From contig DYEA01000007.1 in the NCBI GenBank assembly GCA_020725885.1, forward strand, positions 310,001-374,000: 64,000 nucleotides of DNA, written 5' to 3'. This document shows, one piece after another, positions 17,573-33,188 of this stretch. Numbering within the stretch: the first letter of the stretch is position 1; the number at the start of each line of letters is the position of its first letter. The position numbers and the translations under genes were made by a program. Under the pieces are notes generated by a model that did not search any database, had not been told where the DNA came from, and saw only the letters and a program-made list of their open reading frames with translations. This DNA is from Slackia sp. (GTDB lineage: Bacteria > Actinomycetota > Coriobacteriia > Anaerosomatales > Anaerosomataceae).

Positions 17573-18175
17573 CTACTTCTGGACGCCTTGCCCGAGCGCT
17601 ATCACGACCTGCTGGTCGCCATAGAGCATGATGACGGACGACGTCCGTATGTCGAGCACCTTCCACGGAGAATCCGGGATGACGCCGCCCTCCGGCAGCG
17701 TGTACACGGTCCCGTTCCATACGAGCACCGCATAGAGCCGCTCTGAATCCTGCGCGATGTTGATGAAGTACAGGGTGTTCGGAGCGTACTCTGTCGCGTC
17801 AACCGTATCGGTCGTCGTCTCGGTCGGGGCGGGCTCTTCGCTCGTCTCCTCCGACGGCTTGATCAGCGGATCGAAGATGTCGCGGAATCGGAAGACCTGG
17901 TCGTACGACACCGCTGGAGCCGGCTGAGCGGGGCTCTCCTTGCCGCCTGCGGTCTGCGTCGTCGGCTTGCTCGCTTGCTGCTCGGGCACGCGGATCTCGA
18001 CGTCAGCCACCTGCGGGAGCACGAACCTGAGCACGACGGCCACGGCGACGCCAGCGATGACCGCGAGCACGCCCAGCGCGCCGACGATCATCACCGCTTT
18101 GCCTGCGGGCGTCGAGAAGAAGCCGGCCTTGCCCTGCTCCGGCTGCTCTGGATTCTGCACGATCTCTTCCGCCAT
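17573..18175 (-). CDS. pilP: PilP-like pilus assembly protein
   Basis: This 200-residue protein has one membrane segment (about 28-53). A Thr/Pro/Glu-rich linker with the short DP-rich motif FRFRDIFDPLIKP (about 95-107) follows, then a small beta domain at the C-terminus. PilP-type proteins carry a comparable R-D-P-F segment before a beta domain that links the PilNO complex to outer parts of the machine. Here it is anchored by a helix rather than a lipobox. The assignment rests on position after pilM-pilN-pilO and on this layout. Confidence 0.6.
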   Translation of the reverse strand: MAEEIVQNPEQPEQGKAGFFSTPAGKAVMIVGALGVLAVIAGVAVAVVLRFVLPQVADVEIRVPEQQASKPTTQTAGGKESPAQPAPAVSYDQVFRFRDIFDPLIKPSEETSEEPAPTETTTDTVDATEYAPNTLYFINIAQDSERLYAVLVWNGTVYTLPEGGVIPDSPWKVLDIRTSSVIMLYGDQQVVIALGQGVQK

Positions 18176-18192: not shown

Positions 18193-18840
18193 CTACTCCG
18201 ACGGCGTCGCGCCCGCAGGCGGCGTCGCCGGCGCCGACGGCTGCGCCCCGGCTGCAGACGTTGACGGCTGCACGATCGACATCGTGTACACCTCGAGCTT
18301 GATCAAGGCTTCCACGTACGGCTTCTCGTCCTCAGTCGACGCGACGTAGGTGTACGTCGCGTCGGTGACACGCACCCCCCGCTCAAGCTTCGCGATGCGG
18401 CGGAGGTAGTCGATGTGGTCGGACCAAGCGCCCTGCACGATCACCGAGATCGGGATCTTCGTGTATCCGAGGTCCTTGTTGGCCTGGTCGACGGCGGGGA
18501 CCGGCTCGCCAGGCGTGATCTGGGCGAAGGTCAGCCCGGCAGCGTTGGCCGCGTCCTGCAGGTTCACGATGATCGTCGGGAGCTCCGGAGCTTCCGGCAC
18601 CTGGTTCGCGATGCGCAGCATCTCCACCTGGGCGTCGGCGGCCTGCTGCTTGGCGCTCATCCGCCTGGCGACGATCGCGCGCTGCGCCTGGATGTCGCTC
18701 TCGACCTGCGCGATTTCGCCGTCGATGCGCTTGGCGCGGTCGAACTGCGGCAGTATCGCGAGGAAGATCGCCGCGGCCGTCACGGCCACGATCACCACGA
18801 TGCCGATGATCAGCTGGTTCTGTGCGGAAAGGCGGTTCAT
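18193..18840 (-). CDS. pilO: PilO pilus assembly protein
   Basis: This 215-residue bitopic protein has an N-terminal transmembrane helix (about 10-30), a coiled coil (35-75) and a ferredoxin-like periplasmic domain (about 90-190; PISVIVQGAWSDHIDYLRRI). PilO dimerises with PilN to form the inner-membrane alignment complex. It ends 17 bases before pilP and starts five bases after the pilN stop. Confidence 0.85.
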   Translation of the reverse strand: MNRLSAQNQLIIGIVVIVAVTAAAIFLAILPQFDRAKRIDGEIAQVESDIQAQRAIVARRMSAKQQAADAQVEMLRIANQVPEAPELPTIIVNLQDAANAAGLTFAQITPGEPVPAVDQANKDLGYTKIPISVIVQGAWSDHIDYLRRIAKLERGVRVTDATYTYVASTEDEKPYVEALIKLEVYTMSIVQPSTSAAGAQPSAPATPPAGATPSE

Positions 18841-18844
18841 GCGA

Positions 18845-19450
18845 TCACCTGCCTCCCGCTCCGGCCGTGCCCGTGGCCGTGGACGCAGCCTTCACGACGC
18901 CAGCCGTCACCGTGAACTGCAGCGCCGGCTGGTCCTCGACTTCGGTCTTCACGGAGTTCGACAGCCATACGTCGGCCAGCTGCTCGAGCTCTGCCAGGCG
19001 GACCAAGAGCTTCGCGACTGTCTTGTGACCGTAGTCCGGCGTGTCCGTCGCGTCGACCGAGAAGCCGTCGATCTGCAGCTTCGACTCTGCGGTCGCCTGG
19101 AGCACGGACACCCACATGTCCGAAGGAAGCACAAGCGAGATCTCGTCGAACAGCTTCGCCCAGTTCTGACGGGCGTCGAGAGCGAGCTGCGCCACCGAAC
19201 GTCTGCGAGCAAGCTCCGCCTGCTGCACCTCGAAGATCTCGAGCGAGGCCGCCTGCGCGGTGACCTGCTGCAGCTCCTGCTGCTTCGCCTCGAGGTCGCG
19301 CTGCTTCGCGTTCGCCCGCGTGAACGCGAACACCCAGACCCCGGCGAGAACCAGCGACACCAGGACGAGGGCCGCGACCATGTACGCCAGCCGGCGCTCC
19401 GCTTTGCGCTTCTCGAGTATCTCCGGAGGAAGCAGGTTCACGCGGATCAT
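18845..19450 (-). CDS. pilN: PilN pilus assembly protein
   Basis: This 201-residue bitopic protein begins with the cytoplasmic PilM-binding tail MIRVNLLPPEI (the INLLP-type motif). One membrane helix (about 22-44), a coiled coil and a ferredoxin-like domain follow. The tail inserts into PilM in the known PilM-PilN structures. It overlaps pilM by four bases. Confidence 0.9.
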   Translation of the reverse strand: MIRVNLLPPEILEKRKAERRLAYMVAALVLVSLVLAGVWVFAFTRANAKQRDLEAKQQELQQVTAQAASLEIFEVQQAELARRRSVAQLALDARQNWAKLFDEISLVLPSDMWVSVLQATAESKLQIDGFSVDATDTPDYGHKTVAKLLVRLAELEQLADVWLSNSVKTEVEDQPALQFTVTAGVVKAASTATGTAGAGGR

Positions 19451-20565
19451 GCCTGCAGCCCTCCCATCGCAAGCCCGACCGCAGTGACGCAGCCCATGCG
19501 ATCTTCAGTCAGGATAGCCTGCAGATTGCTGGGCACCTGGAGCCGGGCGAGCGGATCTCCGGGCACCACGCTCGCCTGGAGCCCCTTCTCGAGGTACCCG
19601 ACGAGGTTCTTCAGCTTTGCGCCGCTTCCAGTGACGATGATCTTCTGGATCGACCTCACCTGCGAAGTCTGCGTGAGGTAGTAATCGAGCGAGCGACGCA
19701 CTTCTGCGATGAACTTGTTCACCTCGCGCTCGAGGGCGTCTTGCACCGCTTGCGCCGTCTGAGCGTCGACTTCCGGCGGCACATCGCCGATGCCGGTCGT
19801 TATGTCAGGCAGGCCCACCTTGATCTTCAACGCCTCAGCCTCGTCGAACGTCAGACCGAGAGCGTTGGCGATGGCGTTCGTGAACTGTTCACCCGCAAGC
19901 GACGAGATGCGGTTGAAGCGCGGGATGCCGCGCTCCACGACCGTGATGTTCGTGATGTCGGACGCGATGTGGATGACGCCCGTGGCGCCAGACTCGTCCT
20001 CGAGGAATCCGCCCTGGCCACCCAGAAGGGCACGCACGATCGCGAACGAGTTCACGTCGATCTGGGTGAGCTTGAGCCCCGCCCCTTCCACAGCTGCCAC
20101 GACGTTGCCGATCATGTCGCGCTGGGCCGCGACGAGGAGCACTTCCATCATGTGCTCATCGGACGGGGTCATGTAGTCGCCGAGGATCTGGAAGTCGAGG
20201 ATGCTCTCCTCGACAGCCATGGGGATGTAGTCCTGCGCCTGGTACTGGATCGCGCCTTCCAGTTCAGCTCGTTCCATGAACGGCAGGTCGATGAGCCGGA
20301 CGACGACCTTCTGGTTCGCCACGCCGACGCAGACGTCCTTGCCGCGCACGCCTGAGCGCCGCCAGAGCTCGCGTATCGCGGCCGAGACGCTGTCAGGTGC
20401 GACGATCTCGCCAGCGACGACCGCCCCCATGGGCACGTCGACCATCCCGTACGCAGACACGGCGAACCCAGCACCCGATGGGCGGAGCTGAGCGACTCTG
20501 ACGTGATCGGTCCCGATGTCGAGACCGACGGCGGCGGATCCGCCACCGAAGGAGACGGAGACCAC
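19447..20565 (-). CDS. pilM: PilM actin-like pilus ATPase
   Basis: This 372-residue FtsA-like cytoplasmic protein carries nucleotide-binding motifs VGLDIGTDHVRVAQL at the N-terminus, GVIHIASDITNITVV in the middle and ITGSGAKLKNL-like IVTGSGAKLKNLVGYLE near the C-terminus. It couples to PilN on the cytoplasmic face. A longer frame begins further upstream, but AAGGAGGG lies five bases before a GTG at 20565, and that was chosen as the start. It opens the pilM-N-O-P block. Confidence 0.93.
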   Translation of the reverse strand: MVSVSFGGGSAAVGLDIGTDHVRVAQLRPSGAGFAVSAYGMVDVPMGAVVAGEIVAPDSVSAAIRELWRRSGVRGKDVCVGVANQKVVVRLIDLPFMERAELEGAIQYQAQDYIPMAVEESILDFQILGDYMTPSDEHMMEVLLVAAQRDMIGNVVAAVEGAGLKLTQIDVNSFAIVRALLGGQGGFLEDESGATGVIHIASDITNITVVERGIPRFNRISSLAGEQFTNAIANALGLTFDEAEALKIKVGLPDITTGIGDVPPEVDAQTAQAVQDALEREVNKFIAEVRRSLDYYLTQTSQVRSIQKIIVTGSGAKLKNLVGYLEKGLQASVVPGDPLARLQVPSNLQAILTEDRMGCVTAVGLAMGGLQA

Positions 20566-20687
20566 GCGACCCTCCTTCAACAGTGCCACGACGAAGCTGC
20601 GACCAGTGCTGGGTGTGTGCTGCGTATACCCCCTCGTGGTTCCATCAGGCCCTACGAGCGAGCGGCCATGTGAATCCGTGCATGAAC

Positions 20688-20738: not shown

Positions 20739-22364
20739 TCAGCGGCGCGTCCACAGGCCAGGCATCAGCAGGCCGGAATCGACGCCCGGAAGCGACTGCG
20801 GCAGGTAGGTCGGCAGGAGCGGGTTGGTCACCAGGCACATGTTCGGGTGCTGCGAGTCGATGCGCCCTGCGATGACGGAGCCACGCATCAGCACGTTGTG
20901 CTGGAAGGTGACCACACCTTGCGCGTAGAACGCGCCCGCGACGGTCGGCGACGCCTTGCGCGCCAGTTCCAGCGCCGAGTTGCCGCCGAGCGAGTTGTTG
21001 TCTTGCGTGGCGACGATCAGGTTGCCGGGGGTGGCAAGGCCGAGCGCCCACTTGTTCTGCTCGCCGATCCAGTTGTAGTTGCCCGATGCGTCCGGGGTGT
21101 CGCTGCCGTACGGACGCAGCATGCCGTTGATGGTGATGTTGCCGTTCGCGACGATGGTGCCGTTGCCGATGTAGTACATGTCTTCGGTGAACGTCACCGG
21201 CCCGTCCACGAACACCGTGCCCTCGATGTACAGGATCTTGCGTGTGTTGTCGTACGCGAAGTCGTCGTGGCTGTTCGTGAGCGTATAGTGACCGTCGCCC
21301 GAGAGCGTCGTGCCCGTCGTGGTGAGCGACCCCCACGATCCGAAGGTGCGCCCGCCGATCGACAGCGCGGTCGACCCCTGCCCCGGCGCAGAGATGCTGC
21401 CGTCGGCGTTGCCGATGAACTTGTAGCACGCGTTGCGCGTGCCAGCGGGCCGTGTGTCCGCGTACTGCCGGGCCCACGTCGAGCTGTTCGGCGGCTGCAT
21501 CGTGGTGTAGGTGTTCGGGTCGTTGCCGATGGACTCGAGGTTGGCCGTGGTCGAGCGGTCCGCCGGTCCCATGATGTTATCGACGGATTCCGCCTGCGCC
21601 TTGGTCGCCCACGCCTGGAGCTGCTCGGCGGAGATGCTCGGCAGCGTGATGTCGGGCACCGAACGCGAAACCTGGCTCACGAACACGCCTCCCGCACCGC
21701 CTTTGGTGTCGTTCGGCGGCACGGTGCCGTCGCAGAACACGCGGATGTACTGCGTCTCGGAGCCGAGCTGCCCGCTCGACGCGACGCTGACGCTGCCGCC
21801 CTTCACGAACAGCGGCCCTTCGAGCACCTTCATGTTGGCAGCGATGGCCAGGTTGCCCTTCATGTAGAACGGCCCGACGATGTTGCTCGTGCCCTTCAGA
21901 CCGCCCGAACCGCTGATGAGGGTCTGGTCGCCTGTCCCGGCGAAGTTCATCTTCCACAGGTTCATGAAGTAGAAGTGCTGCGCGACCGTCTCCTGCGTCC
22001 CGTCCTTCCCGACGCCGACCGACGTCAGCCGATACTCGCCGTAGCCCGGGTCGAGACTTTCGATCGTGACGGTGTACGAGCCGTCAGGGGTGGTTCCGGT
22101 CACCGGGAACGTTCCGTTCGAGATGCTTTCCTCGGTGAACGAAGCAAGCACCCGGTCGAGGCCGGTGTTGGCGGCCCGAAAGGCTTTGGACTCGTTCTCG
22201 ACGCGCCGCGACTCGTGCAGCGACTGGCTCGCGAGAGCGTACGAGCCGACCGCGAGCACGGTGATGACCGCGATGACTCCGAGCACCGTGATCATCGCGA
22301 CGCCCGAATCGTCGCGCACGACCAGTCGCGCCTTCTTCACGATCTTCTCGACCATCTCGACCAC
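20739..22364 (-). CDS. PilX-like large prepilin-related protein
   Basis: This 541-residue protein has an N-terminal hydrophobic segment after DDSG (VAMITVLGVIAVITVLAVGSY). It resembles a class III signal but has Thr rather than Glu at position +5, like PilX/GspK-type initiators. Residues about 130-480 are Gly/Thr/Asn-rich with short strand-like repeats (GTIVANGNITING, GTVFVDGPVTF) that suggest a beta-helix or bactofilin-like sheet. It follows pilW by seven bases. It probably forms part of a pilus tip or priming complex. The large extracellular domain is unlike the small PilX of proteobacteria. Confidence 0.6.
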   Translation of the reverse strand: MVEMVEKIVKKARLVVRDDSGVAMITVLGVIAVITVLAVGSYALASQSLHESRRVENESKAFRAANTGLDRVLASFTEESISNGTFPVTGTTPDGSYTVTIESLDPGYGEYRLTSVGVGKDGTQETVAQHFYFMNLWKMNFAGTGDQTLISGSGGLKGTSNIVGPFYMKGNLAIAANMKVLEGPLFVKGGSVSVASSGQLGSETQYIRVFCDGTVPPNDTKGGAGGVFVSQVSRSVPDITLPSISAEQLQAWATKAQAESVDNIMGPADRSTTANLESIGNDPNTYTTMQPPNSSTWARQYADTRPAGTRNACYKFIGNADGSISAPGQGSTALSIGGRTFGSWGSLTTTGTTLSGDGHYTLTNSHDDFAYDNTRKILYIEGTVFVDGPVTFTEDMYYIGNGTIVANGNITINGMLRPYGSDTPDASGNYNWIGEQNKWALGLATPGNLIVATQDNNSLGGNSALELARKASPTVAGAFYAQGVVTFQHNVLMRGSVIAGRIDSQHPNMCLVTNPLLPTYLPQSLPGVDSGLLMPGLWTRR

Positions 22365-22371
22365 GCCCTCG

Positions 22372-22944
22372 TCAGTAGTTGCGGAACAGCACGGTGCGGG
22401 AATCGGAGAACTGCCGTCCGTCGTACATCGTCACCACCGTGACGACGACTCGGATGGCTTTCGACGGCACGTCGCCCATGTTGGTGATCTGGTTGCCGGC
22501 CTTGTCGTAGAAACGGAACAGCGGCGTGCCGGTCTGCACGTTGTAGTTGTGGGTCGACCAGGCGTACGTGGTCGGGCTGCGTTCGTACGTGCCGTCCTGC
22601 CTGATCTCCGCGTTCGAGATGACAAGCCTGTGGTCTGCCGTCGCCTGCATCTCCCAAACCTCTCGGTGTCCATCGGAGTCAGCGTCCGCTTCGCACTTGA
22701 TCCGATACGCGGTCACACCGGGATACGTCGAGTCGATACGGTACTGCTGCTGCATCACGCGCTCGATCTGGAGAAGCGGCGAGCTCACTTCGCGCGCGAA
22801 CCAGGCCTGGCGGTCCGACAGCCGGCTGTAGGTGTGGGAGGCCTGGAAGCCTGCCCACGTCGCCGCCAGGATGATGCCGAGCAGCCCGAGCGCCGCCACC
22901 AGCTCGGAGAGGGTGAAACCGTCGTCTCTGTGCAGGCGATCCAT
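22372..22944 (-). CDS. PilW-like minor prepilin
   Basis: This 190-residue protein carries a textbook prepilin leader: RDDG then FTLSELVAALGLLGIILAAT, with Glu at +5. A pilin-like soluble domain of about 150 residues follows. Size and position between pilV-like and pilX-like genes match minor pilin operons. It would be processed by the prepilin peptidase at 24539-25354. It starts six bases after the stop of the 492-residue prepilin. Confidence 0.75.
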   Translation of the reverse strand: MDRLHRDDGFTLSELVAALGLLGIILAATWAGFQASHTYSRLSDRQAWFAREVSSPLLQIERVMQQQYRIDSTYPGVTAYRIKCEADADSDGHREVWEMQATADHRLVISNAEIRQDGTYERSPTTYAWSTHNYNVQTGTPLFRFYDKAGNQITNMGDVPSKAIRVVVTVVTMYDGRQFSDSRTVLFRNY

Positions 22945-22950
22945 CCGGCG

Positions 22951-24429
22951 TCACCACCCGTACGTGGGCAGCGGCGAAGTACCGCTCGGGCCCACGATAT
23001 TCGAACGCACGGTGACGGGGACCGGCGTCTGCAACAGGCCGCCTGCCGTGCCGGTCGGTGTCACGGTGACCTCGAACTGGTAGTAGTAGTCGGTCGTCTT
23101 CTTGTGCGAGTCGGTGTATGTGTTGGTGGTCAGGGTCTGGTACAGCGTCAGCGTGGTCGGGCTCGCGCCTCTGTACAATCTGTAGGTAAGGCTGCCGCTC
23201 ACGTACGGGAACTGTGGAGGTGAGCAGGTGAGCACGACAGTGCGGTTGCTGCCTGACACAGTGCTTGTCGCCGTCAGCGCCGGCCGGCTCACCCAGGCCT
23301 GCGGGTGGTAGTACCAGTCAGGGAGCCGCAGGTTGCGGGCGCTGTGCGCTTGCATGCGCATGTAGTAGCGCGAGAACGGGTCCGTGGGGACTGTACCGCT
23401 CGTGCTGCGGTAGGTGTTCGTACCGCCGACGAACGATGTGAACGTCCACGTGTCGCTCGATGCAGCCTGCTTGTAGCACTCCACCCGGTAGTGGTCGGTC
23501 GGCGTCGTACCGTCCATGACCTCGTTCCAGCTCAGGTAGCTCTCGGTGGCCGTGCGCGCCTCCACTGTCGAGGTCGTCTGCAACGGTGGCGCGTAATTGT
23601 CCACGAGGAAGTGCCGCACTGTGTACTTGCTGACTCCCCCGGAGTCAAGCACGTACGCGCTGATGGTGCGATATCCGTCGACGATCTCCTGCGTGCCAAG
23701 CTCGTCCGTCTGCAGCGTGTTCCAGATGAACGAAGGCGTCGTGAACGACTGCTGGTCGATGTTCGCCCACGACCCGAGGTTGCCCATCGAGTCCTTCAGC
23801 ACGAACTGGTCGTCGCACCACAGGATGACGGAGCTGACCGTGCGGCCTTCCGAAGCTTCTGCCACCGCGCCCACCGTGAGCGCTCCGCCAGAATGCTGCG
23901 ATCCCCATACCACCGTGTTCTCAGGAGGCGTAGAGCTCGTGAAGGCGATAGTCGGATCGGTCTGCGGATTGCTGACCGCTTGCGTGAGGAACTGGTCGCG
24001 GTCGCGGATGAGCACCTCGGTGACGTACGACATCGGGTTCGCGCTGCCGCGGGTGACGGTGACCGCGAGCCGCAACCGCTTCAGATTCGGGCTGGTCGAA
24101 GACGTGAGCGTCGTCGGAATCGAGACCGTGGGCCGAATCACCACGACGTACTCGCCGACCGTCTGCGTCTCGACCGCCGCCAGCGCGCCACCCTCGCTCA
24201 CGAGCTTCACCTGCGAGAACGGCATCGCGCTCACGCGCTCGACATACGCGTTGATCGCGTTCGTCATGACCGCCCGCTGCTTGGCGGTCAGGCTCATCTG
24301 CGTGGTCGTCCCGAGGAGGCCGAGCACGGCCGTCAGCACGAAGAAGAAGATGACGGCCGAGACGACGATCTCGAGCATGCCGAGACCATCGTCGGCAGAC
24401 AGCCGCTTCATGAGACCGTTCTTGCTCAT
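22951..24429 (-). CDS. PilV-like prepilin with fibronectin-like extracellular region
   Basis: This is a 492-residue prepilin. Its leader ends ADDG and is followed by LGMLEIVVSAVIFFFVLT with Glu at +5, so cleavage is expected. About 450 residues follow, including two regions reminiscent of fibronectin type III folds (about 300-390 around ESYLSWNEVMDGTTP, and 395-480 around LTYRLYRGASPT with TDYYYQFEVTV). Such a size is far above usual minor pilins and suggests an adhesin-type tip subunit. The ATG at 24429 has AGGGG seven bases upstream; the open frame continues further but out of context. Confidence 0.7.
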   Translation of the reverse strand: MSKNGLMKRLSADDGLGMLEIVVSAVIFFFVLTAVLGLLGTTTQMSLTAKQRAVMTNAINAYVERVSAMPFSQVKLVSEGGALAAVETQTVGEYVVVIRPTVSIPTTLTSSTSPNLKRLRLAVTVTRGSANPMSYVTEVLIRDRDQFLTQAVSNPQTDPTIAFTSSTPPENTVVWGSQHSGGALTVGAVAEASEGRTVSSVILWCDDQFVLKDSMGNLGSWANIDQQSFTTPSFIWNTLQTDELGTQEIVDGYRTISAYVLDSGGVSKYTVRHFLVDNYAPPLQTTSTVEARTATESYLSWNEVMDGTTPTDHYRVECYKQAASSDTWTFTSFVGGTNTYRSTSGTVPTDPFSRYYMRMQAHSARNLRLPDWYYHPQAWVSRPALTATSTVSGSNRTVVLTCSPPQFPYVSGSLTYRLYRGASPTTLTLYQTLTTNTYTDSHKKTTDYYYQFEVTVTPTGTAGGLLQTPVPVTVRSNIVGPSGTSPLPTYGW

Positions 24430-24538: not shown

Positions 24539-25354
24539 TCACGAAAGACCTGCAAGGCGCAGGTATGCGGCAAGCAGGGGCTTACCCCACAGCGCCGTCA
24601 CGATCGCGCCGAGCGCGAGGAACGGGCCGAACGGGATCGCCGCATCACGGGCTCCGCGCTTCGACGCCACGCCGACAATTGCTCCGGCAAAGCTTCCGAC
24701 GAGGAGCGCCATCAGCACGAACGGCCCGAGGTACAGTCCGTATGCGGCGAGCAGCTTCACGTCCCCCATGCCGAGCCCGGCGCGGCCACGCAGCCGCTCG
24801 TAGACGAGCGCGGCTGAAAGCGGCACGCCGCCACCAAGCAGGAGCCCGAGAAGAGCGCTCGTTGCGGCCCAAGGGCCAGCCGCGGACCCAACCAGCGGAC
24901 ACGCCGGGACGCCGACCAGCGCAACGACCACCCCCAGCAGGCCGACTCCGCCGAGCATCGCCACGAGCGCATTCGGCAGCCGGCGGTGGTCGAGGTCGAT
25001 GGCCGCGAGGATGAGCGACAGGTAGAAGAGCGCGATCCCGAACAGCGCGCGCGGCGATGCACCCCACGCGAGCGCGGCCGCCGCCCACAAGACGCCGGAC
25101 GCGAGTTCGACTGCAGGGTATCGCCACGAGATCGGCTCGCCGCAGGAGCGGCACCGCCCACGCAGCAAGAGCCACGAGAGCACTGGGACGTTGTCGTACC
25201 AGCGGATCGGCGCCCCGCACCGCGGACAGTGCGAAGGCGGCGACACGAGCGACTCGCCGCGCGGCAAGCGCCAGATGACGACGTTCGCGAACGACCCGAA
25301 CGCGAGCCCGAACAGAGATGCTCCAAGAACCAGGGCGACCGATTCGACCGACAT
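24539..25354 (-). CDS. pilD: Prepilin peptidase / N-methyltransferase
   Basis: This 271-residue polytopic membrane enzyme has about seven or eight helices. A zinc-binding tetracysteine cytoplasmic loop (CPRC about 43-46 and CRSC about 68-71) lies in the methyltransferase part. The two catalytic aspartates of the GXGD protease family are in AAIDLDHRRLPN and GLGMGDVKL. It should cleave and N-methylate the four prepilins encoded around it. In several actinobacteria the peptidase gene lies between aroE and aroC, where the whole pilus cluster sits here. Confidence 0.95.
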   Translation of the reverse strand: MSVESVALVLGASLFGLAFGSFANVVIWRLPRGESLVSPPSHCPRCGAPIRWYDNVPVLSWLLLRGRCRSCGEPISWRYPAVELASGVLWAAAALAWGASPRALFGIALFYLSLILAAIDLDHRRLPNALVAMLGGVGLLGVVVALVGVPACPLVGSAAGPWAATSALLGLLLGGGVPLSAALVYERLRGRAGLGMGDVKLLAAYGLYLGPFVLMALLVGSFAGAIVGVASKRGARDAAIPFGPFLALGAIVTALWGKPLLAAYLRLAGLS

Positions 25355-25451: not shown

Positions 25452-25841
25452 CTAGAAGTGCGAGTGGCGGAGCGTGCCGTCGGTCAGCCAGACGCCGTCG
25501 CCATCGTCGCCCGTCACGGTGCCAGCGGCGTTGACATAGTACAGGTCAGCAGTGGTGCCTGCCGGGCAGTGCGGGACGTCCTTGATGTACGCGCCGCCAG
25601 TGGTCAGTTCGTCGTTGCCGTCGATGGCCTTGGCCGTCCACTGGTTGTTGGGGTCGGCCGCGAGCCACTGCTGCACAGCGCCTTCGATCGTGCGCTGGTT
25701 CGAGTGGCAGGTGCGCAGACGGGCGTTGCGGGACGCTGCGTTGAAGACCGGGATAGCGATGGCGACAAGGATACCGATAATAAGCACGACGACCATCAGT
25801 TCGACGAGAGTGAAGCCCTCGTCCCTCTTGAACATCCGCAT
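25452..25841 (-). CDS. pilA: Major type IV pilin (GspG/PilA-type prepilin)
   Basis: This 129-residue prepilin has the short leader MRMFKRDEG, then FTLVELMVVVLIIGILVAIA with Glu at +5. A compact C-terminal domain has two cysteines (residues about 53 and 91) that could form a disulphide. It is the shortest and most canonical prepilin of the cluster and has the best ribosome-binding site (AGGAGGT nine bases before ATG). Both features point to the major subunit. Its own hairpin follows. Two Asp/Gly-rich segments near the C-terminus (DGNDELTTGG, TGDDGDGVW) resemble the calcium-binding-like end of GspG pseudopilins, so that alternative remains open. Confidence 0.85.
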   Translation of the reverse strand: MRMFKRDEGFTLVELMVVVLIIGILVAIAIPVFNAASRNARLRTCHSNQRTIEGAVQQWLAADPNNQWTAKAIDGNDELTTGGAYIKDVPHCPAGTTADLYYVNAAGTVTGDDGDGVWLTDGTLRHSHF

Positions 25842-25957: not shown

Positions 25958-27172
25958 TCACTTCACGAGCGTGATGACCTGGAACATCGGCATGTACAGC
26001 GCGATGACGATGCCGCCGACGACGACCGCGAGGGTCGCCATCATGAGCGGCTCGATGATCGAGGTGAGGCCGTCGACCGTCGTGCTCACCTCTTCGTCGT
26101 AGAAGTCGGCGATCTTCGTGAGCATGGCGTCGAGCGCGCCCGTCTCTTCGCCGACCGCGATCATCTGCACGAGCATCGAGGGGAACAACGGGTTCTCGCC
26201 GAGCGGCTTGGCGATGGTCTCGCCTTCCTTGATGGCGGACCGCACCTTTTTCACCGCTTGCGCGACGACCTCGTTGCCCGAGGTGTCGGCCACGATATCG
26301 AGGGCTGAGAGGATCGGCACACCGGCCGCCACGAGCGTGCCGAACGTCCGCGTGAACCGCGCGAGCGACATCTTGCGGACGAGCGGCCCGACGATGGGCA
26401 TCCTGAGCTTGATGCCGTCCCAGATCAGCCGCCCGGCGTCGGTGCCCTTCCACATGTTGAACGCGATCGCGCCGACGATCACCGCGATGAGCGTGATGAG
26501 TCCAGGGAGCCCACGCGCGCCCTCCGAGATGTTGACCAGGATCTGCGTGGGAAGCGGCAGCGTACCGCCCATGTCCGCGAACATCTTCTGGAAGGTGGGC
26601 ACGACGAAGATCATCATCGCGACGAGCACGAGGAACACGAGGACGGCCATTGCCACCGGGTACGTCATCGCCGACTTGATGCGGCCCTTGAGGCGGGCGT
26701 CGTTCTCGAAGTGGTCCGCCACACGCAGCAGGACCTCGTCCAACACACCACCGGTCTCGCCGGCCCGCACCATGTTGATGAAGATGGGCGGGAAGATCTT
26801 CGGGTGTTTCGCCATGGCGTCCGACAGCGACTGCCCAGCTTCGACGTCCCGGCCGACCTGCGCGATGACCTCTCTGAGCTCCTTGCTGTCGGACTGCTCA
26901 GCCAAGATCGCCAGGCATTTCGTGAGCGACAGGCCGGCGTTGATCATGGTCGCGAACTGCCGCGCAAAGACCGTGATGTCCTTGGTCTTGACAGACGTCC
27001 CGAACTGGATCTTGTTCAGCGCGGCGAGCCGGTCTTCGCTCAAGTCGAGGACGATGTAGCCCATCTGACGGAGCTTGACCGCCACAGCATCGCGGCTCTC
27101 GCCTTCCAGGCGGCCGCTCACGACCTTGCCGGTCTTGTCCCGGACCGTGTACTTGAAGGTGATGGTGGCCAT
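25958..27172 (-). CDS. pilC: PilC inner-membrane platform protein
   Basis: This 404-residue GspF-family protein is the cytoplasmic-membrane base on which the ATPases act. Two repeated four-helix cytoplasmic domains (about 65-190 and 270-390) are separated by paired membrane segments at about 170-190 and 220-245. A final helix (about 375-398) follows. FARQFATMINAGLSLTKCLAIL and FTRTFGTLVAAGVPILSALDI are the repeat signatures. It lies 48 bases after pilT and 116 bases before the pilin gene. Confidence 0.95.
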   Translation of the reverse strand: MATITFKYTVRDKTGKVVSGRLEGESRDAVAVKLRQMGYIVLDLSEDRLAALNKIQFGTSVKTKDITVFARQFATMINAGLSLTKCLAILAEQSDSKELREVIAQVGRDVEAGQSLSDAMAKHPKIFPPIFINMVRAGETGGVLDEVLLRVADHFENDARLKGRIKSAMTYPVAMAVLVFLVLVAMMIFVVPTFQKMFADMGGTLPLPTQILVNISEGARGLPGLITLIAVIVGAIAFNMWKGTDAGRLIWDGIKLRMPIVGPLVRKMSLARFTRTFGTLVAAGVPILSALDIVADTSGNEVVAQAVKKVRSAIKEGETIAKPLGENPLFPSMLVQMIAVGEETGALDAMLTKIADFYDEEVSTTVDGLTSIIEPLMMATLAVVVGGIVIALYMPMFQVITLVK

Positions 27173-27220: not shown

Positions 27221-28282
27221 TTATCGGCTCCGGCCCAGGAGCGTCTTGAGCGTATTCGGATCGATGGCCCGCTGCAGCGCCGTGTCCTGGCTGATGAGCC
27301 CCCTGCGGCACAGCTCGGCGAGGCTCTGATCCATCGTGACCATACCATACTGCTGACCAGACTGCATCGCCGTGGTGAGTTGGTGCGTCTTGCCTTCGCG
27401 GATGAGGTTGCGGATGCCCGCCGTAGGCACGAGCACCTCGCACGCCAACACGCGGCCCCGGCCGTCGGCGGTCGGAAGGAGCTGCTGGCTTACGATGCCC
27501 TGCAGGGTACCTGCGAGCTGCACACGCACCTGCGACTGCTGGTGGGGCGGGAACACGTCGATGATGCGGTCGACGGTCTGCACAGCGTCTTGCGTGTGAA
27601 GCGTGGCGAGCACGAGGTGGCCGGTCTCGGCTGCCGTCAATGCCGCCGAAATCGTCTCCAAGTCCCGCATCTCGCCGATCAGGATGACGTCGGGATCCTG
27701 CCGCAGGACGTGCTTGAGGGCCATCGAGAAGCTCTTCGTATCAGACCCGACCTCGCGCTGGTTCACCATCGCTTTCTTGTGGTGGTGCAGGTACTCGATC
27801 GGGTCCTCGACGGTGATGATGTGCACTTCGCAGTGCTCGTTGATGTGGTCCACCATCGCCGCAAGCGTGGTCGATTTTCCGGAGCCGGTAGGGCCGGTGA
27901 CCAGCACGAATCCCCTCGGCTTCTCGCACAGCCCGCCAACCACGCTCGGCAAGCCGAGCTCCTCGAAGCTCCTGATCTCCGCCGGGATATGCCGGAACGC
28001 GGCGCCGACGCTCGCCCGCTGGTAGTAGGCGTTCACGCGGAACCGGGCGACGCCGGGAAGGGAGTAGGCGAAGTCGTACTCCCACTCACGCTCGAGCCGC
28101 TCTCGCTGATCCTCTGTCAGGATCGAATACAGCAGCTCCTTCGTATCACGGCTGGTGAGACGGGGGTGGTTCGTCGCGGTGAGTGCGCCGTTGATTCGCA
28201 GGACCGGAGGCATCCCTGCAGTGAGATGCAGGTCCGAGGCACCCCGCTCGACCAGCTCGACAAGAAGCTCCGACAGATCCAT
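27221..28282 (-). CDS. pilT: PilT retraction ATPase
   Basis: This 353-residue hexameric ATPase has an N-terminal PAS-like domain (LLVELVERGASDLHLTAGMPP). Its Walker A is VTGPTGSGKST, the Asp box is in IITVEDPIEYLHHH, Walker B is in PDVILIGEMRDLET and the His box is GHLVLATLHT. The PilT-specific GIRNLIREGKTHQ segment separates it from PilB. It powers pilus depolymerisation. It follows the first pilB by 12 bases. Confidence 0.96.
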   Translation of the reverse strand: MDLSELLVELVERGASDLHLTAGMPPVLRINGALTATNHPRLTSRDTKELLYSILTEDQRERLEREWEYDFAYSLPGVARFRVNAYYQRASVGAAFRHIPAEIRSFEELGLPSVVGGLCEKPRGFVLVTGPTGSGKSTTLAAMVDHINEHCEVHIITVEDPIEYLHHHKKAMVNQREVGSDTKSFSMALKHVLRQDPDVILIGEMRDLETISAALTAAETGHLVLATLHTQDAVQTVDRIIDVFPPHQQSQVRVQLAGTLQGIVSQQLLPTADGRGRVLACEVLVPTAGIRNLIREGKTHQLTTAMQSGQQYGMVTMDQSLAELCRRGLISQDTALQRAIDPNTLKTLLGRSR

Positions 28283-28294
28283 AACGCCCCCCTG

Positions 28295-29962
28295 CTAGAC
28301 GACGACTCTGGCGATCTCCTCCAGCGACGTCAACCCCATCCGGACCTTCTCCAAGCCGTCCTGCCTCAGCGTGAGCATGCCCTGCTCGATGGCGACCTGC
28401 CTGATCTTCTCGGCCGTCGCCTCCTTGACCGTCAGATCGGAGATCTCCTCGCTCACGAGCATCACCTCGTGGATGCCCATGCGGCCCTTGTAGCCGGTCC
28501 CGCCGCACTTCTTGCACCCGACAGGACGGAAGATGCGCTCAGGCAGGTTGTCCTCAGAGAACCCGGCGTCGATGAGCGCCTGTTTCGGCGGCGTGTACTC
28601 TTCCTTGCAGTCTTTGCACAAGCGTCGGGCGAGCCGCTGCGCGAGCACGCAGTCGACAGCTGAAGCGACCAGGAACGGCTCGACGCCCATCTCGATCAAG
28701 CGCGTGATGGCGCCCGGCGCGTCGTTCGTGTGGAGCGTCGACAGCACCAGGTGGCCGGTGAGCGCCGACTCGATGGCGATCTTCGCGGTCTCCTGGTCGC
28801 GGATCTCGCCGACGAGGATCACGTCCGGCGAGCATCGCAGGAACGAGCGCAACGCCCGCGCGAAGGTCAGACCTGCCTTCGGGTTCGTCTGGATCTGGTT
28901 GACGCCGGGCAGCCGGTACTCGACGGGGTCCTCGGCAGTGATGATGTGCCGCGCCGGCTCGTTGAGGACGTTGACGGCCGCGTACAGCGTCGTCGACTTG
29001 CCCGAGCCGGTCGGACCGGTGACGAGGATCGCGCCGTACGGCTTGCGGAACGACGACTCGAAGCGCTCGAGCGACTGCGGGAGGAACCCGAGGTCCTCCA
29101 ACTTGAGCATGATGTTGTCCTTGCGCAGGATACGCAGCACGACCCGCTCTCCGTAGACCGTGGGGAGCGTCGAGACGCGGAAGTCCATCTTGTGGCCGCC
29201 GATCGTGAGCGCGGTGTGGCCGTCCTGCGGCTTGCGCGACTCGGCGATGTCCATGTCGGACATGATCTTGAAGCGGCTGATGATCGCCTGCTGCGTGGAC
29301 TTCGGGCTGCGCATCATCTCGTGGAGCACGCCGTCGATGCGGTACCGGACGCGGAGGTCCTTCTCCTGCGGCTCGATGTGGATGTCTGAAGCGCGGTCGG
29401 CGACGGCTTTGTTGATGATGTAGTTGACGAGCTTGACGATCGGCGCCTCGTCGACGAGCTCGGTGAGCTGCGAGAGGTCGACCTCTTCCTCTTCTACGGC
29501 ACCAGCGTCGACGTCGATGTGCTCGGCGACGCGGTAGTACTCGTTGATGGCTGCGACGATGTCGTCCTTGGTGGAGATGCCTGGCTTGATCTCGTAGCCC
29601 GTGATGATGCGCAGGTCGTCGAGCGCCAGCACGTTGTGCGGGTCGGCCATCGCGACGAGCAGCCGGCCTTCCTCGTCGAACTCGACCGGCATGAGCGTGT
29701 ACCGGTTGGCCAGCTCCTTGGGCACGACGGCGACGGCGGCCGGATCGGGCTTCTGCTGGGAGAAGTCGACGTACGGGATGCCGATCTGCCGGGCCATCAC
29801 CGACAGGATGGCGCCCTGCGTGGCGTACCCGAGATCAACGAGGACCCGGCCCAGAGGGCTGCCCGTCGCCTTGTGGACTTCGAGGGCATCGTTGAGCTGG
29901 CGCTCGGTGATGATACCGGCGCGCACCAACAGCAAGCCCAGGCGTTCGCCCGCTTCAGCCAA
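28295..29962 (-). CDS. pilB: PilB extension ATPase, first copy, with MshEN domain
   Basis: This 555-residue ATPase powers pilus extension. Residues 7-59 form a near-perfect tandem MshEN motif (RLGLLLVRAGIITERQL..., then LGRVLVDLGY...), the cyclic di-GMP binding module of MshE/PilB proteins. Next come the N2 domain, SDIHIEP, Walker A GPTGSGKST, Walker B, and the zinc module CKDC with CKKC (about 450-500). It lies directly upstream of pilT-pilC and matches the normal extension ATPase. A second PilB lies 4 kb upstream. Confidence 0.95.
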   Translation of the reverse strand: MAEAGERLGLLLVRAGIITERQLNDALEVHKATGSPLGRVLVDLGYATQGAILSVMARQIGIPYVDFSQQKPDPAAVAVVPKELANRYTLMPVEFDEEGRLLVAMADPHNVLALDDLRIITGYEIKPGISTKDDIVAAINEYYRVAEHIDVDAGAVEEEEVDLSQLTELVDEAPIVKLVNYIINKAVADRASDIHIEPQEKDLRVRYRIDGVLHEMMRSPKSTQQAIISRFKIMSDMDIAESRKPQDGHTALTIGGHKMDFRVSTLPTVYGERVVLRILRKDNIMLKLEDLGFLPQSLERFESSFRKPYGAILVTGPTGSGKSTTLYAAVNVLNEPARHIITAEDPVEYRLPGVNQIQTNPKAGLTFARALRSFLRCSPDVILVGEIRDQETAKIAIESALTGHLVLSTLHTNDAPGAITRLIEMGVEPFLVASAVDCVLAQRLARRLCKDCKEEYTPPKQALIDAGFSEDNLPERIFRPVGCKKCGGTGYKGRMGIHEVMLVSEEISDLTVKEATAEKIRQVAIEQGMLTLRQDGLEKVRMGLTSLEEIARVVV

Positions 29963-30830: not shown

Positions 30831-31358
30831 TCAGCTCATGCTCTCGAGGATGCGATAGAGGAGACCGAGCAACACCGCCTTGACGCTCTCCTTGCTCCGG
30901 GCGTCGCAGGGCAGCAACGGCACCTCCGTCGGCAGATCGAGCTCGGAGCGGATGCGGGACAGCGAGGCGACGTCGTCGCCGGCGATCTTGTTGGCTGCCA
31001 CCACGAAGGGCACGTCGGACATGTTCGTGAAGAACTCGATCATCGAGCGGGCGTCGGATATCGACTCGGGCGAGAGGCCGTCGACGAGAAGCACGAACCC
31101 AAGCATGCCCTCAGAGAGCGTCTCCCACATGAAGGAGAACCGCTCTTGCCCCGGCGTCCCAAAGAGGTACAGCACGACGTCGTCGGAGATCGTGATGCGC
31201 CCGAAGTCCATGGCGACCGTGGTCTCGCCACCGCCTTCGCCCGAGATATCGCTGACCTGGCGCTCAGTCGACAGGACGGTTATCTCGCTCACCGACTTGA
31301 TGAACGTGGTCTTCCCCGCGTTGAACGGCCCGGTGACGACGACTTTCACAGACTGCAT
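30831..31358 (-). CDS. Small Ras-like GTPase (MglA/CvnD-like)
   Basis: This 175-residue single-domain GTPase has a P-loop GPFNAGKTTFI, a switch I area with TTVAMDFGRI, the G3 variant LFGTPGQERF, and the G4 ANKIAG. GTPGQ in place of the DTAGQ of Ras and the TTVAMDFG segment resemble the CvnD GTPases of streptomycete conservons more than myxobacterial MglA. Both families work with roadblock proteins, and one is encoded two genes upstream. By analogy it may control polarity or activity of the pilus motors, which flank it on both sides. Confidence 0.85.
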   Translation of the reverse strand: MQSVKVVVTGPFNAGKTTFIKSVSEITVLSTERQVSDISGEGGGETTVAMDFGRITISDDVVLYLFGTPGQERFSFMWETLSEGMLGFVLLVDGLSPESISDARSMIEFFTNMSDVPFVVAANKIAGDDVASLSRIRSELDLPTEVPLLPCDARSKESVKAVLLGLLYRILESMS

Positions 31359-31376: not shown

Positions 31377-33188
31377 CTACAGCTTCTCGATGCCATCGAT
31401 GATCTTCAGGACCAGGTCGCGGTCGACCAGCTTGTCGCGGTGGATCGCGGGCTGCTCGCCGGGCTCCGGCAGCTTCGTGACGGTCGTGGTAGGCCGCGGC
31501 CGAGCAGACCCGCCGCCCGTCAGCGCCGTGATCTCGTCGGTGAGCGCGCTCGTGAGAGACACGTCTGTCTCGAACTCGGCAAGGTACGCATCGGTCGAGA
31601 TGACCTTCGGCGCCTCGCGCTCTTCCGCAGCCGGAGGCTCCTCCTCGCCGCCGAGCGAACGCAGCAGGTCAGACAAGGCGGCGTCCGTCGAAACCTGCTC
31701 GACCGCTGGCGGCGCGCCTTCCTGCACGCCGATGGGCTCGCGGACTTCGGGCTCAGGCACGACCTCGACCTGCGGCTGCTCCTCCACGACGGCCCCGGCT
31801 TGAGCCGGCGTCTCGGCAGGCGGCGTCACGACGGCCTCCTCGGCCGGCAGCTCGCCCAGGCCGAGAGCAAGGAGGTCCTTCTCGAGGTCGCCGGTCGGCA
31901 CGAACGAGGGAGCCGCAGGCCCCGTCGCCTCCACTGGCGCCGCTGGCTCCTGCGGCACCGCTTCGAGGACGGGCGCGACCGGTATCTCGCTGAGTTCCGC
32001 AGCGGAGATCGGGCCGACTTCGGGGGTCTCCGACTCGAGAACGGCCTCCGCCTCGACGGGCGGCTCGGGCACTGCCGGCGGCTCCTGCACAGCGACAGGC
32101 TCCTCGGCTTCGGGGACGGGAGGCGCGGGCGCCGGAGCTTCGGGGACGGGAGGCGCTGCGGGATGCGCCTCCGGCTGGGGCTTGAGCACGGCCCCCATCA
32201 TCTGCTCGAAGACCGCCATGTCGTCCGCGCTCGGCGCGGCTTTCGGGGCGGACAGGAACTCCGGCTCCTCCGCGGGGGCTTGCGGGACCTCCGCCACGGA
32301 CAGCGGGACCGCCTCCGCTACGGCTGGCGCAGGCGCTTCCGCCACGGCCGGCGCAGGTGCTTCGGGTGCAGCGGCCGGCGCGGTCGGAGCAGGCGCCGGT
32401 GCCGCTTCCGCACGCGCCGCCCTGCGCGCCTCTCGCTCCGCCCGCTCTGCTCGCAGCCGCTCGACCTCCTCGTCGGACGCGACTTCGAGCAGTCCCGCCG
32501 AGAACAGCCCGTAGATGATGCGCGCGACTTCGAAGTCCGTCTTGCCGAGGTCTCGCGCGAGCTCCCCGACGGTCCGCGTGCCATCAGTCAGGAGCAGCAG
32601 GTTCCACTCAGTGGGCTTGAGCGAGATCTCGAAGGTGCCCTCGCCCGGCGCCGTGGCCATCTTGAACACCATGTCCATCGAGGGGACCTTCTTCTTGATG
32701 CGGTTCCACTCCTCGATGCGACGGCTGCCCTCCATCACGATGTTCTCGATGGAGACAGAAAGCCCGATGTCCTCCTCGACGACCGCGGGCAGTATCTCGA
32801 AGTCGAACTCGCCCTCGTCCCAGCGCATGAGGTCGAAGATCGTGTCTTGGATCTGTTCCTGGACGAACGCCTCGAGCACCGGCTGCGTCACGTAGCCCTC
32901 GTCGACCAGGATCTGGCCCAGCCGGCGTCCGCCTTCGGACTCCCTGGACCGGATCTCGATGGCCTTCGCCAGCGCGCTCGGCGTGATCCTGCCGGCATTG
33001 ACGAGACGCTGGCCGAGCGGCTCCCGGTTCCAGTCGGACTGAGCGAAGAAGACCTCGCCGTCGCGGAACCAGATGGAGCCTTCCGCGTCGGCGCGCTTGA
33101 TGCGCAGCACCCCCGTCTTCTTGCTCAGCTGGACGAGCTGGAAGACGTCAGGGAGGCTGAAGTCTTTGAGGTTGCCGCGAAGCGCCAT
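31377..33188 (-). CDS. DUF4388 (PatA-N-like) protein with MshEN-like tandem and long proline-rich linker
   Basis: This 603-residue cytoplasmic protein starts as a DUF4388/PatA N-terminal domain (MALRGNLKDFSLPDVFQLVQ; FRDGEVFFAQ). Residues about 57-112 contain two LGxxLVxxG-type repeats ending EAFVQEQ, resembling MshEN. The DUF4388 fold resumes with LMRWDEGEFDFEILP, and a winged-helix-like segment follows (about 195-235, DGTRTVGELARDLGKTDFEV). Residues about 240-520 are Ala/Pro/Glu-rich and disordered. The end (IDGIEKL) is helical. Family members work with response regulators and GTPase-roadblock pairs in gliding and pilus control. It sits between the roadblock and GTPase genes. Confidence 0.8.
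   Translation of the reverse strand: MALRGNLKDFSLPDVFQLVQLSKKTGVLRIKRADAEGSIWFRDGEVFFAQSDWNREPLGQRLVNAGRITPSALAKAIEIRSRESEGGRRLGQILVDEGYVTQPVLEAFVQEQIQDTIFDLMRWDEGEFDFEILPAVVEEDIGLSVSIENIVMEGSRRIEEWNRIKKKVPSMDMVFKMATAPGEGTFEISLKPTEWNLLLLTDGTRTVGELARDLGKTDFEVARIIYGLFSAGLLEVASDEEVERLRAERAEREARRAARAEAAPAPAPTAPAAAPEAPAPAVAEAPAPAVAEAVPLSVAEVPQAPAEEPEFLSAPKAAPSADDMAVFEQMMGAVLKPQPEAHPAAPPVPEAPAPAPPVPEAEEPVAVQEPPAVPEPPVEAEAVLESETPEVGPISAAELSEIPVAPVLEAVPQEPAAPVEATGPAAPSFVPTGDLEKDLLALGLGELPAEEAVVTPPAETPAQAGAVVEEQPQVEVVPEPEVREPIGVQEGAPPAVEQVSTDAALSDLLRSLGGEEEPPAAEEREAPKVISTDAYLAEFETDVSLTSALTDEITALTGGGSARPRPTTTVTKLPEPGEQPAIHRDKLVDRDLVLKIIDGIEKL

Follow-up and report, generated by a model that had tools for sequence, protein, structure and literature searches.

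The window, i.e. the whole stretch of 64,000 nucleotides from Slackia sp. analysed here (68.2% G+C; bases 310001-374000 of contig 6 in a host genome of 1.83 Mb, rated 100% complete), carries on its minus strand, at positions 20739-24429, three prepilin genes, pilV, pilW and pilX, arranged head to tail between pilD and pilM. They form part of one type IV pilus cluster of this Coriobacteriia genome, whose order is pilB-T-C-A-D-V-W-X-M-N-O-P (Table 1). The host is of the Gram-positive type and akin to anaerobes of the subsurface. PilV, PilW and PilX are likely to be minor pilins of the I, J and K types, which would initiate and cap the pilus and present two ligand-binding modules, and the tip of the pilus is probably adapted to holding an extracellular target. 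The direct observations behind this reading are the order of the genes, their prepilin motifs, the absence of Glu5 from PilX, the relation of PilX to ComZ of Thermus thermophilus in fold and in sequence, and one fibronectin III (FN3) domain. Modular pilins and ComZ are already known; the trio described here is a further variant in Coriobacteriia.

PilX and its relation to ComZ

The preliminary description of this DNA gave the right sizes and coordinates for PilX, PilW and PilV (541, 190 and 492 residues), apart from a likely correction of the PilX start. Indeed, the Met (M4) of an alternative ATG at 22355 (538 residues) does not vary among the four closest rows and a GAGGG motif lies too close to the GTG at 22364, so that the ATG is the more likely start. 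The prepilin leader Gly is present in 26/26 rows of the wider PilX set and Glu5 in none of them, and Thr5 is found in 19/19 rows of the family. The absence of Glu5, already remarked on in the preliminary description, is therefore old and not a sequencing slip. Among the 26 PilX-like rows, (i) the GspK model matches 14 (E up to 0.05; best 6.8e-5), (ii) PilX_N matches four (E up to 0.01) and (iii) Pfam DUF7305 matches six. Compared with the curated GspK equivalog model, the window PilX scores 15.4 bits, far under the cut-off of 130, and PilX is thus K-like and not GspK itself. Window PilX and PilV, searched alone against Pfam and NCBIfam, gave no confident domain; the matches come from the family alignments alone. 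On the basis of its leader, its lack of Glu5 and its co-encoding with I and J types, PilX is classified from its sequence as a K-type minor pilin.

The Gly/Asn/Thr strand repeats that had been noticed in PilX are real: GPFYMKG at residue 164, GPLFVKG at 183, GTVFVDG at 382 and GTIVANG at 402 recur with a spacing of 19-20, and in the predicted structure they are the coils of a beta-solenoid. The AlphaFold2 model, built from a four-row alignment (mean predicted local distance difference test score, pLDDT, 49.9), consists of a long helix, four antiparallel strands and then solenoid strands in two parts (residues about 149-211 and 369-512), which are separated by a poorly modelled stretch. In a Foldseek search of this model against the PDB, three ComZ chains (6qvi) rank first to third (E 1.6e-8, 4.3e-8 and 8.5e-7), the first non-ComZ match appearing only at E 0.089. 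In VIA comparisons, ComZ aligns with model residues 81-532 over 272 residues (Z 21.4, root-mean-square deviation 3.2, 22% identity), ice-binding proteins reach Z 11.7-13.5 over the solenoid only, and the tapirins of Caldicellulosiruptor (6n2b and 4wa0) reach Z 9.8 and 9.5 through a solenoid-type match of the C-terminal domain. The tapirin family itself matches only residues 6-72 of PilX, weakly (13.7 bits against a cut-off of 600), and no paper linking tapirins with type IV pili in Caldicellulosiruptor was found in the open-licence literature.

Since the PilX model is weak, the link to ComZ was tested by sequence alone. A PilX profile searched against the PDB without the model places ComZ at the top, with E 0.014 for 22 rows and 3.9e-6 for 26 rows (next match 0.43). 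The matching segments run collinearly through the pilin domain and the solenoid, beginning at the AFxxAxxGL motif that follows the helix and ending in the last coils. By predicted fold and by sequence profile, ComZ (PMC6561018) is the closest known relative of PilX and takes the place of PilC/PilY1, with which the preliminary description had compared the locus. This relation suggests that PilX-like proteins without a name (Pfam DUF7305) may be readable through ComZ; papers on DUF7305, or on ComZ-type pilins in Actinobacteria, were not found in the open-licence literature.

In Thermus, ComZ has been described as a DNA receptor at the tip and argued to be unable to fit within the fibre; its solenoid, whose ends are joined by a long loop, is inserted ahead of the last pilin strand (PMC6561018). 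Both ComZ and PilX are large pilins with a GspK-like pilin domain, no canonical pilin motif and a beta-solenoid interrupted by a long loop, and both genes adjoin that of an I-type pilin. The parts of PilX stand in the same order as those of ComZ, with four strands preceding the solenoid in the low-confidence model. The C-terminal 36 residues are the best kept of PilX (mean identity of 70% over 14 rows; P522, P526 and W538 invariant) and may be the closing pilin strand, as in ComZ. Unlike ComZ, PilX belongs to a host genome with no secretin or Omp85 match (both searches were positive in control genomes), its partner PilV itself bears modules, the ComZ DNA-contact lysines are half matched on an alignment of uncertain numbering, and the function of PilX is predicted only.

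PilV, PilW and the conservation of the trio

PilV has the standard leader previously ascribed to it: the leader ends in Gly15, Glu is found at mature position 5 in 19/19 rows, and the mature protein has 477 residues. In the pilin part, the PilV family model matches 9/19 rows and GspI 5/19 (E up to 0.05), and comparison of this part with the PDB gave no pilin match. From its sequence, PilV is assigned as a canonical I-type pilin with a long extension. As to the two fibronectin-like regions proposed for this extension, the first (residues 281-376) is borne out by sequence. Indeed, the family profile retrieves FN3 proteins among PDB chains from 3.3e-11, with a full-domain match at 6.2e-7, and Pfam fn3 is matched in 10/19 members (best 1.5e-5), the window copy alone giving no match at 0.1. 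The second (residues 380-482) is FN3-like in the model (Z 8.6-11.3), where its ten-residue blocks have pLDDT values of 54-86, but of 37 at 461-470; its sequence profile gave no FN3 match. For residues 145-280, family searches gave no family. The PilV model was built from a four-row alignment and has a mean pLDDT of 46. PilV, with its FN3 domain, and PilX, with its predicted solenoid, are modular pilins, i.e. they join a pilin module to a domain that is not pilus-specific. As to the pilin-like N-terminal packing that had been named as a point to check, both models begin with a long helix that leads into a sheet of four strands, at low confidence (pLDDT 46 for PilV and 50 for PilX). PilW has Glu5; GspJ matches 2/19 PilW rows, and the PilW profile retrieves pilin leaders only from the PDB.

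PilX is matched in 26 of the 27 genomes of the same family. Window-type PilX is present in 24 of these 26, two of them as fragments (G020 and G024); in G003 and G026 the match is weak and restricted to the N terminus, and G001, a 70% complete genome, gave no match. Comparison of 21 family loci shows pilM after pilX in all of them and the order pilV-pilW-pilX-pilM in 20, the exception being L055, where pilW gave no match. PilV, PilW and PilX are thus no chance assemblage, as the family retains both the proteins and the order of their genes. Median identities to the window over the family loci are 82.7% for PilB, 72.3% for PilM, 52.8% for PilX, 42.9% for PilW and 36.3% for PilV; the identity and place of PilT are blurred by cross-matches with PilB. 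Within the class, the PilX profile is found in 55/196 genomes (53/61 of the same order and 2/135 of other orders) and the PilV profile in 59/196, part of them through the extension or the leader alone. The trio is therein mostly confined to its own order and is kept as a block in the family. In a sample of the phylum, the PilX profile matches 79/396 genomes, many over the leader helix alone. The PilX protein led to named relatives, namely Coriobacteriaceae bacterium EMTCatB1, which was obtained from a thermophilic biocathode (PMC7943316), a Coriobacteriia bacterium and an Actinomycetes bin. The words pili, pilus and pilin do not occur in the paper on EMTCatB1.

In three genomes (G019, G018 and G026, at loci L058, L059 and L061), a V-W-X-like prepilin set of another kind occupies a locus of its own, and in G003 (L060) such a set replaces the usual trio inside the pil cluster. 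The alignments were composed as follows. Alignment A3 holds 19 of the 22 long family rows, that of the window among them, the near-duplicates L042, L044 and L048 being left out, as were the fragment L062 and the paralogue-type L058-L060. A4 holds 19 of 22 rows (without L044, L047 and L056, the last of which is truncated) and A6 19 of 21 (without L043 and L048), the paralogue-type L058 and L060 being likewise absent from A6. A5 combines 14 family rows with 8 of 10 order loci, and A7 combines 10 family rows, 6 order loci and 10 of 14 phylum loci (left out: L109, whose start is missing, and L111, L112 and L115, which resemble others).

A putative pilus tip and its ligand

In published tip complexes, a K subunit without Glu5 caps the HIJK complex and modular pilins sit at the tip (PMC9934059). 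By analogy with such complexes, a tip position, an order of subunits and a cycle of extension and retraction can be proposed for the trio. PilX would be outermost, because it has no Glu5 to offer a subunit above it, with PilV beneath; the pilin domain of PilX would carry the ComZ-like beta-solenoid and PilV a stalk with two FN3-like modules. Extension driven by PilB would push these modules outward, the modules would bind a ligand, and retraction by PilT would pull it in. With GspHIJK and FimU-PilV-PilW-PilX, the cluster shares the I-J-K gene order and a K subunit without Glu5; unlike these systems, it has no visible H and no PilY1 match, and both I and K are enlarged. PilB and PilC of Streptococcus sanguinis likewise join a pilin to large ligand-type modules in a monoderm without PilY1, but their modules are of the vWA and lectin types, and the I-like PilA of that species is small and lacks Glu5, whereas the PilV studied here is large and has it (PMC8179133, PMC9934059). 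More than 1,200 modular pilins in 264 architectures have been described (PMC8179133). The proposal of a tip complex that carries an adhesin, made in the preliminary description, holds in that PilV, PilW and PilX look like one tip-type set of minor pilins; as to a separate adhesin, nothing points to one, the modules being part of PilV and PilX themselves. The accompanying statement that PilC/PilY1 is absent agrees with the search for PF05567, which gave no match at E up to 1 in the host genome, a search without a demonstrated positive control, as the 14 control genomes gave no match over the cut-off either.

Several points weigh against a tip-capping trio. The PDB profile search with the 19 family rows of PilX did not list ComZ, the PilX and PilV models are of low confidence, with four-row alignments, and that of PilX does not resolve the C-terminal strand which closes the pilin sheet in ComZ. 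Furthermore, the GspJ and GspI matches are few and weak, with the window PilV and PilW rows scoring neither, and no H subunit is seen in the cluster. The presence of GspK, GspI and GspJ profiles among the matches would also suit PilV and PilX as pseudopilins of a short secretion-type fibre with no pilus tip. This is very improbable, as PilT-like, PilA and pilM-N-O genes are present and no secretin or Omp85 was found in the genome.

As regards the ligand of the putative tip, DNA and a surface or particle are rated about equal, and both at once are possible. As has been proposed for ComZ and PilA2 in Thermus, the tip could receive DNA in natural transformation, with PilX binding DNA and PilT retraction delivering it to ComEA and ComEC; this has a real chance of being correct, somewhat short of even. 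It agrees with ComZ being the closest relative of PilX by fold and profile, with the genes for ComEC, an SLBB-HHH ComEA directly upstream of ComEC, and DprA in the genome, and with the cluster encoding the only two-domain PilC pilus found there. However, ComEC is present in 188/196 genomes of the class and the PilX profile in 55/196; being near-universal, ComEC does not mark this pilus, and its co-occurrence was rejected as a sign of competence. All 19 rows of PilX and all 19 of PilV have an acidic ectodomain, with net values of -2 to -34 for PilX and of -1 to -32 for PilV. At the positions compared with the ComZ DNA-contact lysines K98 and K233, the R208 column is basic in 16/19 PilX rows and the S103 column in none, the numbering offset of the alignment being uncertain. 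Another monoderm pilus binds DNA at other minor pilins, ComGD-ComGF (PMC12153270).

A tip that acts as an adhesin for surfaces or particles, e.g. Fe(III) minerals, electrodes or other cells, deserves the same guarded credence. Modules of the FN3 and solenoid kinds are in keeping with the ligand binding associated with modular pilins (PMC8179133), and the PilX model is matched at Z 9.8 by a tapirin, a protein whose family name denotes cellulose binding, the family match being weak (0.014). In a cultured member of the Anaerosomatales, pili-like appendages form only in the presence of solid ferrihydrite, on which the cells cluster (PMC9686372), and attachment is for this reason held about as likely as DNA binding. 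Nevertheless, these appendages, with a stated diameter of 0.8-0.9 nm, were not demonstrated to be type IV pili, and the link between the genus of the window and the ferrihydrite species is inferred. PilV diverges faster than the machinery (median of 36% against 83% for PilB), as a ligand-facing part would, but weak constraint would fit equally, and no ligand site was identified in PilX or PilV.

Taken more broadly, the ComZ fold might be a widespread K-type tip module of Actinomycetota, paired here with an FN3-bearing I-type pilin into a two-effector tip without PilY1 or secretin, for minerals or electrodes and perhaps DNA; this is put forward tentatively, at slightly less than an even chance. 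With the present analysis, a tip pilin whose crystal structure comes from a single diderm thermophile gains a counterpart in a Gram-positive-type order that comprises metal reducers and probably a species from a biocathode, and a set of proteins becomes available for studying how such fibres hold on to what they meet.

The pil cluster and other genes

The features of the cluster are listed in Table 1.

Table 1. Coordinates of the pil genes in the window and of the regions of PilX and PilV
Feature	Position	Strand	Description
pilP-like	17573..18175	-	pilP_fam 2.3e-5, under the curated cut-off
pilO	18193..18840	-	family match
pilN	18845..19450	-	family match
pilM	19447..20589	-	family match
pilX	20739..22364	-	K-type minor prepilin by sequence, 541 aa (538 if ATG start at 22355), ComZ-like
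PilX residues 506-541	20742..20849	-	best-conserved part (LPxSLPG...W), which may form the final pilin strand
PilX residues about 367-505	20850..21266	-	predicted beta-solenoid, part two (model, repeats)
PilX residues 214-366	21267..21725	-	long stretch between solenoid parts; pLDDT mostly <50
PilX residues about 143-213	21726..21938	-	predicted beta-solenoid, part one (model, repeats)
PilX residues 22-138	21951..22301	-	helix at the mature N terminus, lacking Glu5, and pilin-type sheet of four strands (DSSP of model)
pilW	22372..22944	-	J-type minor prepilin, 190 aa, with Glu5
pilV	22951..24429	-	I-type minor prepilin by sequence, 492 aa, ATG at 24429, with Glu5 and C-terminal modules
PilV residues 380-482	22984..23292	-	fibronectin III-like domain, by model; no sequence support
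PilV residues 281-376	23302..23589	-	fibronectin III domain
PilV residues 145-280	23590..23997	-	beta-rich region (model); no family match
PilV residues 16-143	24001..24384	-	N-terminal helix and pilin-type sheet
pilD	24539..25354	-	prepilin peptidase
pilA	25452..25841	-	prepilin, 129 aa, likely major subunit
pilC	25958..27172	-	platform protein
pilT	27221..28282	-	retraction ATPase; named from sequence reading and cluster position
pilB	28295..29962	-	assembly ATPase; named from sequence reading and cluster position

A secretin is the usual partner of PilP; the PilP-like protein is kept in this cluster though the genome gave no secretin match. Another pair of T2SSF platform genes lies on contig C7 (268907-270296) and is perhaps a Tad system, so that the pilus of the cluster may not be the only fibre-type system of the host. 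As these are the only other T2SSF-type platform genes found, a single two-domain PilC pilus is counted in the genome. Upstream of pilB, a small Ras/Arf-type GTPase (30831-31358, minus strand) and a DUF4388 protein (31377-33188, minus strand) are encoded, with one gene without family matches between these genes and pilB; the GTPase and DUF4388 genes are possibly a control set for the pilus. A lone PilA-like prepilin of 114 residues is also encoded in the same genome (L002 1483-1824; C6:213532), beside a gene that by eye is GGDEF-like. In some relatives (L047-L050), two PilA-like genes are present in or near the pil cluster.

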